Part shown: positions 3,202 to 8,187 of the stretch, piece after piece | Layout of the letters: each line of letters opens with the position of its first letter | Position numbering within the stretch: the first letter of the stretch is position 1 | Assembly: GCA_944380095.1 (NCBI GenBank) | Contig: CALWGP010000013.1 | Span: 1-36,974, forward strand | DNA length: 36,974 nt | Reading direction: 5' to 3' | From: an uncultured Lachnospiraceae bacterium | GTDB taxonomy: Bacteria > Bacillota > Clostridia > Lachnospirales > Lachnospiraceae | Translations under genes and position numbers: made by a program | Notes under the pieces: generated by a model | What the model was told of the DNA's origin: nothing | Database searches by the model: none | Seen by the model: only the letters and a program-made list of their open reading frames with translations

Positions 3202-5547
3202 ATGAAATGTATGATATTGGCAGGCGGCAGGGGGGACAGGCTCTGGCCGCTGTCCAGGAAAAATTATCCGAAACAGTTTATTTCCGTTCATGGCAGTCAC
3301 TCCATTTTTCAGGAAACCATCGCGAGAAACATGGCTTTCTGCGATGAGTTTATTATTGTGACGAACAGGGAATATCAGTTTATTGTGGAAAATCAGCTGA
3401 AAGCTTTTCAGGGGATTACTTACCGGCTGGTGCTGGAAGAAGAGGCCAGGAAGACCACGGCGGCCATTTTGCTGGCCTGTCTGGAATTTCCCCTTTCGGA
3501 GCTTTTATTTATTGTCCCGTCGGACCAGGTGATCCGGGGAGAAAGTTATAAGGACGATATAAACAGGGCTATGGTCCTGGCGAGAAACGGCGGGCTTGTG
3601 GTTTTCGGGATGCCTGTTGAAAAACCGGACGTCCGGTACGGATATGTACAGTGCCGGGGAGAGGATGTGCGGCGGTTCGTGGAAAAACCGGACCTTTCCC
3701 AGGCAGAAGAATATCAGAAGGCCGGGGATTACCTGATCAACGGCGGGATGTTCCTGTTTACCAACGGGGACCTGCTTCAGGAGGTCAGGCAGCAGTCGCC
3801 GGAGGTGTTCATGGCCTGCGAACGGGCTTTTGAGGACCGGCTGGTGGAAAAGGGAAAGCATATTTTCTACCGAAGGGAGGCCATGGAACAGATCCCGGCG
3901 CAGTCCATTGAAAAGACGGTATTCGAAGGGACGAAAAAGGGAAAGGTGGTACAGGCATCTTTTTCCTGGAAGGATCTGGGGAGCTTGGAGGATCTGAGCG
4001 AAAGCGGGCTGATGACGCAGGAAGAACTGCGCCGCCAGGCCCAGCATTCCTGTGAGAATACCACCATTATCAACCGGGGGAGCCGGAGCATTGTAGTAGC
4101 CAACCACTTAAAGGACGTGACCATCGTCAATACGGACGACGCCGTTTATGTGGGAAAAACCGGCGCTTCCGAGGAACTTAAGGAGCTGCGGAGGGAAAAT
4201 CCCGGGCTTCAGAGTTATTTTGACATGGGGCAGGTGATTTATAAGCCCTGGGGCACTTATGAGATCCTGTCCGCAGACAGACGGTGTGTGGTCCGGAAGG
4301 TGATCCTCAACGAAGGACGCACCATTTATGCCCATAAGCACGCCAGACGGACGGAACACTGGATCATTGTCAGCGGGAAGGCACGGATTGCGCTGGCGGG
4401 ACAGGAAAAGGAATATTCCAGCAACGACAGCATTGAGATCGCGGAAAATACGGTGCACCAGATTTCCAATATCGGTGAAGAACCGCTGGTTTTTCTGGAA
4501 ATTTCCACGGGCGAAGAAGTGATGGAGCGCGACCTGATTTCCGTGGAGAGCCGGGATCTGACCGAGGCGGAGCTGGGTTATGAGACGGAGCCTTTTGTCC
4601 GGCTTTTGCCTGCCTTTAAGGATTATCTTTGGGGAGGACAGAAGCTGCGGGAACGGTACGGGAAGAAGTGCGATTATGATATCGTGGCGGAAAGCTGGGA
4701 AATGTCCGCCCACGAAGCGGGACAGAGCATTGTGGCTTCCGGCCGCTACAAGGGGATGCTGTTTGCGGATTATCTGACCCGGATCGGACGGGAAAACTGC
4801 GGCTGGAAGTGCCAGTCCGTGGAAAGGTTTCCCCTTTTGGTCAAGCTCATTGACGCCAGGGAAAACCTTTCCGTACAGGTCCATCCGGACGACGCCTATG
4901 CCCTGGCCCAGGAAAACGAATACGGGAAAAACGAGATGTGGTACGTCCTGGAGCATGAGGAAGGAGCCGGGATTTACTGCGGATTTTGCCGCGACGTTTC
5001 CCGGCAGGAAGTGGAAAGGGCCTTGCAGGACGGGACAATTCTTTCCCTGCTTAACTGGATCCCCGTAAAGGACGGGGACGCCTGCTTTATTCCGGCAGGA
5101 ACGGTGCATGCCATCGGAAAAGGCGTGGTGCTGTGCGAAGTCCAGCAAAGTTCCAACTGTACCTACCGCCTTTATGACTATGACCGGAAGGACCGTTACG
5201 GCAACAAAAGGCCGCTGCATATCAAACAGGCCCTGGAGGTGATGGATTACAGGCGTTATGAGATGCCGCGCTATCCGGATGAAAAGGTGGAGAGGAAGAA
5301 CTACACTTTCCGGATTTTAAGCCGGTGCAAATATTTTGAATGTGCCAGTATCCGGCTGCACGGGGAGATGGAACTGCCGGCCTGTCCGGATTCCTTTTCC
5401 TCTCTGCTGTGCGTCAGGGGAAAAGGGAGGCTTTCCAACAGCCGGGAACAATGTAAATTTTCCGTGGGGGACAGTTTTTTCCTGCCCTGTACGAAAGAGC
5501 GGCTGAAGCTGGAAGGGGACTGCGAAGTGATTGTGACCCATATCTGA
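3202..5547 (+). CDS. manC: Trifunctional mannose enzyme: GDP-mannose pyrophosphorylase + type II PMI + type I PMI fusion
   Basis: A 781-residue chain with three catalytic modules. (1) Residues 1-270: mannose-1-phosphate guanylyltransferase, with the nucleotide loop GGRGDRLWPLSR at 8-19 and FVEKP at 159-163. (2) About 345-450: a cupin-type (type II) phosphomannose isomerase with YKPWGTYE from 347 and HKHARRTEHW at 378-387. (3) About 465-781: a zinc (type I, ManA-like) phosphomannose isomerase whose ligands all look intact (Q559, H561, E578, H636), with R656 of the YRLYDYDR motif. Together they convert fructose-6-phosphate to mannose-6-phosphate and mannose-1-phosphate to GDP-mannose; the phosphomannomutase step is not encoded here. 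Bifunctional ManC of about 465 residues is standard; the added type I domain is unusual. AGGAGG sits 13 nt upstream, a long spacing. First gene of the operon. Confidence 0.9.
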   Translation: MKCMILAGGRGDRLWPLSRKNYPKQFISVHGSHSIFQETIARNMAFCDEFIIVTNREYQFIVENQLKAFQGITYRLVLEEEARKTTAAILLACLEFPLSELLFIVPSDQVIRGESYKDDINRAMVLARNGGLVVFGMPVEKPDVRYGYVQCRGEDVRRFVEKPDLSQAEEYQKAGDYLINGGMFLFTNGDLLQEVRQQSPEVFMACERAFEDRLVEKGKHIFYRREAMEQIPAQSIEKTVFEGTKKGKVVQASFSWKDLGSLEDLSESGLMTQEELRRQAQHSCENTTIINRGSRSIVVANHLKDVTIVNTDDAVYVGKTGASEELKELRRENPGLQSYFDMGQVIYKPWGTYEILSADRRCVVRKVILNEGRTIYAHKHARRTEHWIIVSGKARIALAGQEKEYSSNDSIEIAENTVHQISNIGEEPLVFLEISTGEEVMERDLISVESRDLTEAELGYETEPFVRLLPAFKDYLWGGQKLRERYGKKCDYDIVAESWEMSAHEAGQSIVASGRYKGMLFADYLTRIGRENCGWKCQSVERFPLLVKLIDARENLSVQVHPDDAYALAQENEYGKNEMWYVLEHEEGAGIYCGFCRDVSRQEVERALQDGTILSLLNWIPVKDGDACFIPAGTVHAIGKGVVLCEVQQSSNCTYRLYDYDRKDRYGNKRPLHIKQALEVMDYRRYEMPRYPDEKVERKNYTFRILSRCKYFECASIRLHGEMELPACPDSFSSLLCVRGKGRLSNSREQCKFSVGDSFFLPCTKERLKLEGDCEVIVTHI

Positions 5548-5595
5548 ACGCTGCCGTAAAACCGGTGCTCTTGATTTGAAAAGGAGGATAAAAAA

Positions 5596-6450
5596 ATGAG
5601 CAATCCTGTTTATGAAAAATTGATGAAATGTTATGAAAGTTTCCGGCAAAAGATCGATTTTAAGCCGGAAGTGGCCATTGTCCTGGGCTCCGGCCTGGGG
5701 GATTACGCCGATGATATCCGGGTGGAAGCAGAGCTGGATTATCACGAGATCGAGGGATTCCCGGTTTCCACGGTGCCGGGACACGCAGGAAAGTTTATTT
5801 TCGGGTATGTCAACGATGTGCCCGTGGTATGTATGAAGGGAAGGGTGCATTATTATGAAGGGTATCCCATCCAGGATGTGGTGCTGCCTGCCCGGCTGAT
5901 GAAGCTGATGGGCGCAAAGATCCTGTTTCTGACCAACGCTTCCGGCGGGATCAATCCTTCCTTTACCGCGGGGGACTTTATGATGCTGACGGATCATGTT
6001 TCCCTGTGGGCGCCCAATCCCCTCATCGGCGCCAATATCGATGAGCTGGGCGTGCGTTTCCCGGATATGACCCATGTGTACGACGCAGACCTGCAAAACT
6101 CTCTGCGGGAAACGGCGAAACGGTGTGGGATTTCCTTAAAAGAGGGAATTTATGCCCAGCTGACAGGCCCCTCCTTTGAATCCCCTGCGGAAATCAGACT
6201 TCTGCACGGGCTTGGGATCGATGCGGTGGGCATGTCCACTGTAGTGGAGGCCATTGCCGCCAACCATATGGGAATGAAAATCTGCTGCATTTCCTTTGTA
6301 AGCAATCTGGCTGCCGGAATGACGGACAACCCGCTGACCCATGAGGAGGTACAGGAGGCGGCCAGCGCAGCTGCGCCCCGTTTCCGGCGCCTGATCACGG
6401 AAGCGGTGACGGATTTCGGGAAGCTGTTGGAAAAAGAAACGGAAGGCTGA
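5596..6450 (+). CDS. punA: Purine nucleoside phosphorylase (trimeric PNP family)
   Basis: A 284-residue PNP of the inosine/guanosine-cleaving trimeric class. It catalyses phosphorolysis of purine (deoxy)nucleosides to free base plus (deoxy)ribose-1-phosphate in the cytosol. Motifs: phosphate loop GSGLG (31-35), GRVHYYEGY, TNASGG, QLTGPSFESPAEIR, VGMSTVVEAIAANHMG and SNLAAG; length is normal. AAGGAGG lies about 8 nt before the ATG. It follows the mannose enzyme by 48 nt without a visible terminator and is followed 2 nt later by cytidine deaminase, forming a nucleoside salvage block. Confidence 0.93.
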   Translation: MSNPVYEKLMKCYESFRQKIDFKPEVAIVLGSGLGDYADDIRVEAELDYHEIEGFPVSTVPGHAGKFIFGYVNDVPVVCMKGRVHYYEGYPIQDVVLPARLMKLMGAKILFLTNASGGINPSFTAGDFMMLTDHVSLWAPNPLIGANIDELGVRFPDMTHVYDADLQNSLRETAKRCGISLKEGIYAQLTGPSFESPAEIRLLHGLGIDAVGMSTVVEAIAANHMGMKICCISFVSNLAAGMTDNPLTHEEVQEAASAAAPRFRRLITEAVTDFGKLLEKETEG

Positions 6451-6452
6451 GC

Positions 6453-6893
6453 ATGGAAAAAGGGGATTGTCAGAAGCTGATCCGGGAAGCCTTAAAGGCC
6501 AGGGAGTTTTCCTACTCCCCTTATTCGGATTATCGGGTAGGCGCGGCCCTGATGACGAAGGAAGGGGAGATTTTTACCGGCTGCAATATTGAAAACGCGG
6601 CCTATACGCCTACGGTCTGCGCGGAACGAACGGCGTTTTTTAAGGCTGTGGGCGAAGGCCGGCGGGACTTTGCGGCCATCGCCATTACGGGAAGCCCTGC
6701 CGGCCGGATGTCCCAGTTGTCCTGGCCCTGCGGCGTTTGCAGGCAGGTGATGATGGAATTTTGCGACCCGGAAGAATTTTACGTGATCGTAGCTGTTTCG
6801 GAAGAAGTTTACCAGGTCAGACGGCTCAAAGAGCTGCTGCCGGAGGGGTTTGGCCCGGCGAATTTGCAGAAAGGACATTCCGGAAAGGAATGA
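6453..6893 (+). CDS. cdd: Cytidine deaminase
   Basis: A 146-residue zinc cytidine/deoxycytidine deaminase giving uridine/deoxyuridine and ammonia. The catalytic CAE is at C56-A57-E58 and the other two zinc cysteines are in PCGVCRQ (C93, C96). The substrate-binding SPYSDYRVGAAL and GCNIENAAY segments are intact. Length fits the small homotetrameric class. It starts 2 nt after the punA stop, with GGAAGG in the end of punA as ribosome binding site, so translational coupling is likely. Confidence 0.93.
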   Translation: MEKGDCQKLIREALKAREFSYSPYSDYRVGAALMTKEGEIFTGCNIENAAYTPTVCAERTAFFKAVGEGRRDFAAIAITGSPAGRMSQLSWPCGVCRQVMMEFCDPEEFYVIVAVSEEVYQVRRLKELLPEGFGPANLQKGHSGKE

Positions 6894-6909
6894 AGGAGGA
6901 GAAAGGAAA

Positions 6910-8187
6910 ATGAAAATCCGTTTTTACAACGCGAGAATATTGACGATGGACGGCAACTGTGACCTGACGGAAGGAGAGCTTTGGACCGATGGGGAAAAGA
7001 TTTCCTATGTGGGTCCGGCAAAGGACTGCAACGGGGAAAACTGGGACCGGGAAATCGATTGTCAGGGAAATGTACTGATGCCCGGGTTCAAAAATGCCCA
7101 CACCCATTCGGGAATGACGGCCATGCGGTCCTTTGCGGACGATATGCCCCTTCAGGAGTGGCTCAATACGAAGATTTTCCCGCTGGAAGCCAAAATGACG
7201 GAACAGGACAACTATGACCTGACCTGCCTGGCGATTCTGGAATATCTGACCGGCGGGGTTACCTCCATTTTTGATATGTACCTTTCGCCCAAAGATATCG
7301 CCAGGGCCTGCATCGACATGGGAATGCGCTGTGTCCTGGTCAGCGGGCTGAACAAGTTCGGGCCTTCCGTGGAGGAGATGGAGAGAAGATACCTGTCCTT
7401 AAACGGGATGCACCCCCTGATTTCTTATAAGATGGGCGTTCATGCGGAATATACCTGCGACAGGGCGCTTCTGGAAGAAGTGTCCGCCCTGCTGCACAAA
7501 TACCAGGTTCCTTTTTATACCCACATGTCCGAAACGAAGCTGGAAACGGATGAATGCGTAGAACGTTACGGCATGACCCCCCCGCAGTTTTTCAACTCCC
7601 TCGGACTGTTTGACTTCGGCGGCGGCGTTTATCACGGCGTCTACCTGACGGAAGAAGACATGGATCTGTTTGCAGATAAGAAAATCGGCGTGGTTACCAA
7701 CCCCGGCTCCAATACGAAGCTGGCCAGCGGGATCGCCCCCGTGGGGCGCTTCCTGGAAAAGGGACTGTGCGTGGGCATCGGGACCGACGGGCCTTCCAGC
7801 AACAACTGCCTGGATATGTTCCGGGAGATGTTCCTTGTGACGGGGCTGGCAAAGCTGCTGCAAAAGGACGCGTCCGCAGTGGATGCCCATGAAGTGCTCA
7901 AAATGGCCACCGTAAACGGCGCGCACATCATGGGGATTCCGGAAGCGGACGTATTGGCCGCAGGCAAGCTGGCGGATGTGATCATGATCGACCTGCACCA
8001 GCCCAATATGCAGCCTTTGAACAACATTACCAAAAATATTGTTTACAGCGGCAGCAAGCAGAACGTGAAGATGACCATGATCAATGGGAAGATCCTCTAT
8101 GAAGACGGGAAATTCTTAAACGGGGTGGACGCAGAGGCGATCTATGCGAAAGCCAACGAGATTATCGCGCGGCTTTCGGAAGGGTAA
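6910..8187 (+). CDS. mtaD: Amidohydrolase, MTA/SAH deaminase type
   Basis: A 425-residue metal-dependent amidohydrolase of the TRZ/ATZ subfamily, most like 5'-methylthioadenosine/S-adenosylhomocysteine deaminases. Metal ligands are visible: H64-x-H66 in NAHTHSGM, H178 in GVHAEYTC, H205 in THMSE with E208, and D293 in GTDGPSSNN. It would deaminate MTA, SAH and perhaps adenosine or 5'-deoxyadenosine to the inosine forms in the cytosol. The ATG at 6910 is chosen because GGAGG precedes it closely; an upstream in-frame extension would overlap cdd. The position after punA and cdd supports a nucleoside substrate, because PNP can cleave the inosine-type product. Chlorohydrolase or guanine-deaminase-like activity remains possible. 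Confidence 0.8.
   Translation: MKIRFYNARILTMDGNCDLTEGELWTDGEKISYVGPAKDCNGENWDREIDCQGNVLMPGFKNAHTHSGMTAMRSFADDMPLQEWLNTKIFPLEAKMTEQDNYDLTCLAILEYLTGGVTSIFDMYLSPKDIARACIDMGMRCVLVSGLNKFGPSVEEMERRYLSLNGMHPLISYKMGVHAEYTCDRALLEEVSALLHKYQVPFYTHMSETKLETDECVERYGMTPPQFFNSLGLFDFGGGVYHGVYLTEEDMDLFADKKIGVVTNPGSNTKLASGIAPVGRFLEKGLCVGIGTDGPSSNNCLDMFREMFLVTGLAKLLQKDASAVDAHEVLKMATVNGAHIMGIPEADVLAAGKLADVIMIDLHQPNMQPLNNITKNIVYSGSKQNVKMTMINGKILYEDGKFLNGVDAEAIYAKANEIIARLSEG

Follow-up and report, generated by a model that had tools for sequence, protein, structure and literature searches.

A ManC-like module fused to a type I phosphomannose isomerase in Lachnospiraceae, with a possible regulatory role for its pyrophosphorylase domain

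Phosphomannose isomerase (PMI) converts fructose-6-phosphate to mannose-6-phosphate, the entry step of GDP-mannose synthesis. In a 36,974-nucleotide stretch of DNA from an uncultured Lachnospiraceae bacterium, hereafter the window, one gene appears to combine a type I PMI with both modules of a ManC protein, a GDP-mannose pyrophosphorylase (GMP) domain and a cupin of the type II PMI kind. Why should an isomerase carry in the same chain a second potential isomerase and a domain of the class that makes the pathway's end product? An earlier note, made from the letters of the window, suggested that one of the isomerases may have become regulatory or that the fusion channels mannose-6-phosphate. 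Its interpretation is partly supported by the survey described here, which turns attention to the pyrophosphorylase domain.

Architecture, occurrence and origin of the fusion

The fusion gene is a single uninterrupted open reading frame with an ATG start, encoding 781 amino acids (Table 1). Four Pfam domains are found in the product, all above the curated cut-offs: NTP_transferase (residues 3–268, E = 2.4e-39), MannoseP_isomer (342–449, E = 1.1e-24), PMI_typeI_cat (467–572, E = 6.7e-13) and MPI_cupin_dom (709–781, E = 1.8e-14). Using phmmer against the PDB, residues 2–269 match 2qh5 of H. pylori (1.8e-52) and residues 465–781 match B. subtilis ManA, 1qwr (4.7e-60). An AlphaFold2 model was built from 48 relatives (mean pLDDT 86, pTM 0.69). 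In the model, residues 1–338 resemble the T. maritima GMP 2x65 (Z = 34.5, rmsd 2.6 Å over 318 residues), the GMP domain also matches 2qh5 (Z = 36.3), and residues 463–781 match 1qwr (Z = 40.9, rmsd 1.8 Å over 313 residues). The type I half is a complete PMI with its own C-terminal cupin. Reading frame, Pfam, phmmer and structure matches all confirm the earlier note's view that three domains share one chain.

Table 1. Features of the fusion gene and of other parts of the window (positions in the window)
Feature	Start	End	Strand	Basis or remark
450-aa ORF, adjoining the convergently oriented sporulation gene ytvI	577	1929	+	no Pfam or NCBIfam match
Fusion gene: GMP-like domain, type II-like cupin, type I PMI	3202	5547	+	ORF, domain and structure matches
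N-terminal GMP domain, residues 1–335	3202	4206	+	PF00483; structures 2x65, 2qh5
Stretch with fusion-specific C3, N43, C47, F50, F69	3208	3408	+	rare or absent in ordinary GMPs
R13 of GGxGxR, kept in the window's protein	3238	3240	+	kept in 43/43 canonical GMPs and 53/101 fusions
K162 of the EKP motif, kept in the window's protein	3685	3687	+	changed in 28/101 fusions
D258 of WxDxG, kept in the window's protein	3973	3975	+	changed in 17/101 fusions
Middle cupin (MannoseP_isomer), residues 338–452	4213	4557	+	PF01050; model
Cupin metal-ligand positions H378, H380, E385, H419	4333	4458	+	residue comparison
Type I PMI domain, residues 463–781	4588	5544	+	TIGR00218; 1qwr
Fusion-specific F521, W535, K536 in the type I domain	4762	4809	+	residue comparison
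Type I zinc and catalytic residues Q559, H561, K576, E578, H636, R656	4876	5169	+	residue comparison
Purine nucleoside phosphorylase, cytidine deaminase and amidohydrolase genes	5596	8187	+	profile matches
591-aa ammonium transporter with C-terminal P-II regulatory domain (transporter–regulator fusion)	20711	22486	+	
549-aa ORF	31910	33559	+	no Pfam match

Residues 1–451 have the order GMP, then MannoseP_isomer cupin, in common with ManC/AlgA/WbpW (TIGR01479). Unlike these proteins, the fusion adds a complete type I PMI and misses the curated cut-off of the ManC model (333.7 bits against 372.95), whereas it passes that of TIGR00218 (manA) with 154.7 bits against 116.2. Automated naming fails on such a protein: with the ManC model just short and TIGR00218 alone passing, the whole chain would be labelled a class I PMI.

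The same domain order over residues 1–781 recurs at about 100 loci. In the window's family (Lachnospiraceae-like), 42 of 397 sampled genomes, about 11%, carry the fusion, a count that includes two copies truncated where their contigs end (G348, G351) and one copy in which the middle cupin is absent (G277); the genomes sampled are largely MAGs and related to one another. An assembly artefact, or a fusion that is a rare artefact, is ruled out by these numbers. The earlier note had called such a chain unusual and had proposed a survey of co-occurrence: the fusion proves fairly frequent rather than a one-off, and we found neither a description nor a characterization of it in the literature searched, which leaves out most subscription journals. 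A genome-wide scan kept 80 loci, nearly all of them in Lachnospiraceae, with Eisenbergiella, Kineothrix, Lachnospira, Frisingicoccus, Schaedlerella and others as hosts. Outside the family, class- and phylum-wide samples held few fusion genomes (G632, G604).

The 102 fusion proteins all group in a single clade of the type I domain tree (SH-aLRT 99), together with one contig-edge fragment, and stand-alone ManA proteins lie outside it. The simplest reading is a single fusion event, in which a ManC-like module of GMP and cupin would have been joined to a type I PMI, probably within Lachnospiraceae. A separate lineage of the family (L143–L148) encodes the GMP-cupin and ManA as adjacent genes, that is, the same modules in the same order as the fusion but as two proteins. 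In five of these pairs (L143–L147) the two genes lie in one frame, a convergent arrangement without fusion, and in two of them (L143, L144) the genes are separated by a single in-frame stop codon that is closely followed by a start (TAG-TTG-ATG and TAA-GCA-GTG). The type I PMIs of the split pairs fall outside the fusion clade, so that recent fusion by stop loss from such pairs is not supported. A similar pair is found in the plasmid collection, where the Lactococcus plasmid NZ_PP589662 covers more than 80% of the query as two annotated genes; in the phage collection, no phage reaches this coverage. Given the split-pair lineage and the Lactococcus pair, the linkage of ManC-type and ManA-type proteins has evidently arisen more than once.

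The two isomerase-like domains

By its zinc ligands, catalytic lysine and arginine, fold and match to TIGR00218, the fusion protein is predicted to be a type I PMI. It shares with ManA (TIGR00218; 1qwr) the full domain and all zinc and catalytic residues: Q559, H561, K576, E578, H636 and R656 are identical in 100 of 100 fusions and in 42 of 42 stand-alone type I PMIs, and the four zinc ligands among them (Q559, H561, E578, H636) had been correctly recognized in the earlier note. In contrast to stand-alone ManA, the fusion has about 460 additional residues at its N-terminus and the residues F521, W535 and K536, present in 96–100 of 100 fusions, at positions that are occupied differently in stand-alone ManA. 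No other type I PMI accompanies the fusion in 41 of 44 fusion genomes, the window's included, and the only MannoseP_isomer domain of the window's genome is the one in the fusion protein. The fusion would be the only recognized enzyme making mannose-6-phosphate in this gut bacterium.

The middle cupin is more ambiguous. Its metal ligands H378, H380, E385 and H419 are retained in 96–99% of fusions, and R383 and E433 are retained as well. Modelled alone, it adopts a cupin fold (pLDDT 88.7). Two single-domain PMIs of Thermococcus, 7zvm and 7zvy, match it best (Z = 17), but other cupins follow within one Z unit, so these matches do not decide its function. The residues that mark type II enzymes are a different matter. 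In place of the motifs SLQxHxHRxEHW and IEVQxGxYLGEDDI, the fusion cupin has IYAHKHARRTEHW and LEISTGEEVMERDL. It is without Q378, H382, Q435 and the GEDD loop (YLGEDDI), unlike the nine ManC-type proteins compared, nearly all of which share this signature. Across the family the Q378 position is histidine in 97 of 101 fusions, the H382 position is variable, Q435 is lost and the loop is replaced. The atypical motif YAHKHARR, noticed in the earlier note, follows the family rule.

Judged from these residues, PMI activity in the middle cupin is unlikely, and its loss likely. We grade the loss as likely only because mono- and bifunctional ManC proteins are not clearly separable by sequence (PMC3441752). 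In the literature, V. cholerae ManC is designated type II yet is without PMI activity, and the Coxiella type II enzyme CBU0671 is active in vitro and gave no complementation (PMC3204966). Two GMP–ManA fusions (L149, L106) depart from the common architecture: the middle cupin is missing in one (678 aa) and unrecognized in the other (751 aa).

In a profile–profile comparison, the middle cupin matches the cupin at the C-terminus of the type I domain (hhalign probability 91). Type I and type II PMIs are therefore probably distant cupin relatives, and to call them non-homologous, as had been done, was an overstatement.

Erosion of the pyrophosphorylase active site under constraint

The most degraded part of the family is neither isomerase domain; it is the GMP active site. 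Five of its residues, R13, K24, D108, K162 and D258, we take to be catalytic by correspondence with RmlA-type enzymes. They are invariant in 43 of 43 canonical GMPs, and all five are kept in the six split-pair proteins. In the fusion family, unlike ManC, they are often changed: all five are kept in 40 of 103 fusions (27 of 73 at 80% non-redundancy), and at least one is changed in the other 63. The window's protein has the GMP fold and keeps the complete set. Mapped on the type I PMI tree, the state of the site, intact or changed, switches at least 13 times. No paper on the catalytic motif was found in the literature searched.

The changes concentrate at R13, at E161/K162/P163 and at D258. Residue 13 is replaced by S, A, T, K, C or G, and residue 162 by R, Q, S, A, N or E. 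At the five positions, the eroded relatives L101 and L079 read AKDQR and SKDRD. Since R19 and K24 are retained, replacement of R13 by S, A or T may weaken GMP catalysis rather than abolish it. One could imagine that the domain has been turned into a nucleotidyltransferase for another sugar-phosphate or nucleotide, as the changes fall at these sites and nucleotide-loop residues remain. Such a shift is expected to leave a consistent set of replacements, yet the replacements at residues 13 and 162 are diverse, and the gene neighbours point to GDP-mannose; we regard a new substrate as very improbable.

Constraint on the rest of the domain was assessed in close pairs that share an eroded site. The dN/dS of the GMP domain is mostly 0.06–0.1, comparable to the values for the PMI domain and for close intact pairs, with the caveat that many dS values are near saturation, often near or above 1. 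The exception is the pair L100/L101, with 0.17 in the GMP domain against 0.045 in the PMI domain, indicating relaxed constraint. The eroded GMP domain is generally under strong purifying selection. Eroded members retain the nucleotide-loop glycines G8 and G9 as well as K24, Q25, D108, G182 and W256. They also retain five fusion-specific residues: C3 (99/101 fusions versus 0/43 ordinary GMPs), N43 (101/101 versus 0/43), C47 (100/101 versus 1/43), F50 (99/101 versus 0/43) and F69 (100/101 versus 0/43). By the secondary structure of the model, C3 and C47 would be located where strands 1 and 2 begin, at some distance from the R13-bearing loop that follows strand 1. A natural guess is that this patch forms a conserved interface with the patch of F521, W535 and K536 in the type I domain.

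These observations bear on whether the GMP-cupin half is a structural passenger, serving only the folding, oligomerization or solubility of the PMI while a redundant GMP activity decays. The recurrent loss of catalytic residues would fit this, as would the lost or strongly diverged middle cupins of L149 and L106 and the somewhat faster divergence of eroded GMP domains (GMP/PMI identity ratio 0.69 in eroded versus 0.82 in intact members). We nevertheless consider it improbable: dN/dS is low in most pairs sharing an eroded site, dozens of positions are invariant, nucleotide-site and fusion-specific residues included, and type I PMIs that stand alone do without such a partner.

Pathway context and a proposed regulatory role

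Of the 42 fusion genomes, 40 encode a separate canonical GMP, against 34 of the 355 genomes without the fusion (Fisher p = 7e-32, a value that ignores the relatedness of the genomes); the co-occurrence could reflect shared ancestry. As to the two exceptions, the genome of G348 is incomplete, and in G328 a GMP that is more divergent lies directly beside the fusion. The separate GMP is nearly universal also where the GMP site of the fusion is intact. By contrast, no separate GMP was found in the six split-pair genomes, where the GMP residues are intact, unlike those of many fusions. In raw counts, a second GMP adjoins the fusion in 26 of 63 eroded and 4 of 40 intact cases; an adjacent GMP as the driver of erosion was considered, and the association is not significant on independent pairs.

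The window's genome has its second GMP on another contig (C81), beside a GDP-L-fucose synthase-like (fcl-like) gene and a glycosyltransferase, names assigned by reading of the sequence, and it has two PGM/PMM genes. Around 101 fusion loci, the most frequent neighbours are a sugar-nucleotide dehydratase-like SDR (34), a stand-alone GMP (29) and a PMM/PGM family gene (22). Taken together, the separate GMP, the PGM/PMM genes and the neighbours suggest that the GDP-mannose pathway is complete without GMP activity of the fusion. Downstream of the fusion in the window, the next genes begin after 48 bp and their order is kept in the nearest relatives (L024, L025), so that mannose entry adjoins nucleoside salvage in all three (3202–8187, + strand, in the window).

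Could the fusion instead be an active multifunctional enzyme, in which GMP and type I PMI, with perhaps the cupin PMI too, are functional and the synthesis of GDP-mannose is co-regulated or partly channelled? All five GMP residues are present in the window's copy and in 39 further members, and the middle cupin, with its complete set of metal ligands, finds its top structural matches among cupin PMIs. The separate GMP would then supply another branch, such as GDP-fucose; two GMPs per genome could divide the work in this way, and the one on C81 adjoins the fcl-like gene. Against this, the GMP site is eroded in 63 of 103 fusions and the PMI site in none, the separate GMP is nearly universal even beside an intact fusion GMP, and the cupin is without the type II signature residues. 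Direct channelling would also be incomplete, as a PMM step lies between PMI and GMP. We consider a multifunctional enzyme unlikely, if less so than a structural passenger. The earlier idea of mannose-6-phosphate channelling is weakened for the same reasons: a separate canonical GMP occurs in nearly all fusion genomes, and the mutase step is outside the protein.

The reading we prefer, to which we give about an even chance, is that of a type I PMI whose GMP-cupin module is regulatory and probably acts as a GDP-mannose sensor, much as GMPPA does for GMPPB. After a single fusion of the ManC-like module onto the PMI, the C-terminal domain would carry out the isomerase chemistry. Bulk GDP-mannose would be supplied by the separate canonical GMP (on C81 in the window's genome), so that the fusion's GMP domain could give up catalysis, which it appears to have done in many members. 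The domain would be retained because it binds GTP, GDP-mannose or mannose-1-phosphate, and it would tune the PMI through the fusion-specific interface; the middle cupin would be a non-PMI linker or a second ligand site. Ligand sensing, the direction of the allosteric effect, contact between the two patches and the loss of PMI activity in the cupin are what we infer here. With its five GMP residues intact, the window's protein may sit at the enzyme end of the series and have GMP activity besides regulating the PMI. The earlier suggestion that an isomerase domain may have become regulatory comes close to this proposal, but it passed over the GMP active site.

GMPPA is a non-catalytic GMP paralogue that binds GDP-mannose and inhibits GMPPB (PMC11228364). 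The combination of erosion and conservation in the fusions is consistent with a regulatory pseudo-pyrophosphorylase of this kind, and the principle of the animal GMPPA–GMPPB complex (PDB 7d72–7d74), a silent GMP homologue that senses GDP-mannose, would be shared. There the controlled enzyme is a GMP and the sensor a separate subunit, whereas in the fusion the PMI would be controlled, and in cis. The likeness we propose is one of working, not of membership. A more far-reaching version, which we hold only tentatively, is that in this bacterial family the GMP domain, joined in cis to the enzyme that opens its own pathway, has turned time and again into a pseudoenzyme, which would sense the end product and exert feedback control over the PMI. 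It would be a single-chain counterpart of the animal GMPPA sensor, of independent origin and acting at a different step.

Members of the family range from those with an intact GMP domain to those in which it is heavily eroded, with the PMI unchanged throughout, and this natural series allows the passage from enzyme to regulator to be traced. Under the proposed role, one would expect the end product to control mannose entry in common gut bacteria whose glycans contain mannose or fucose.
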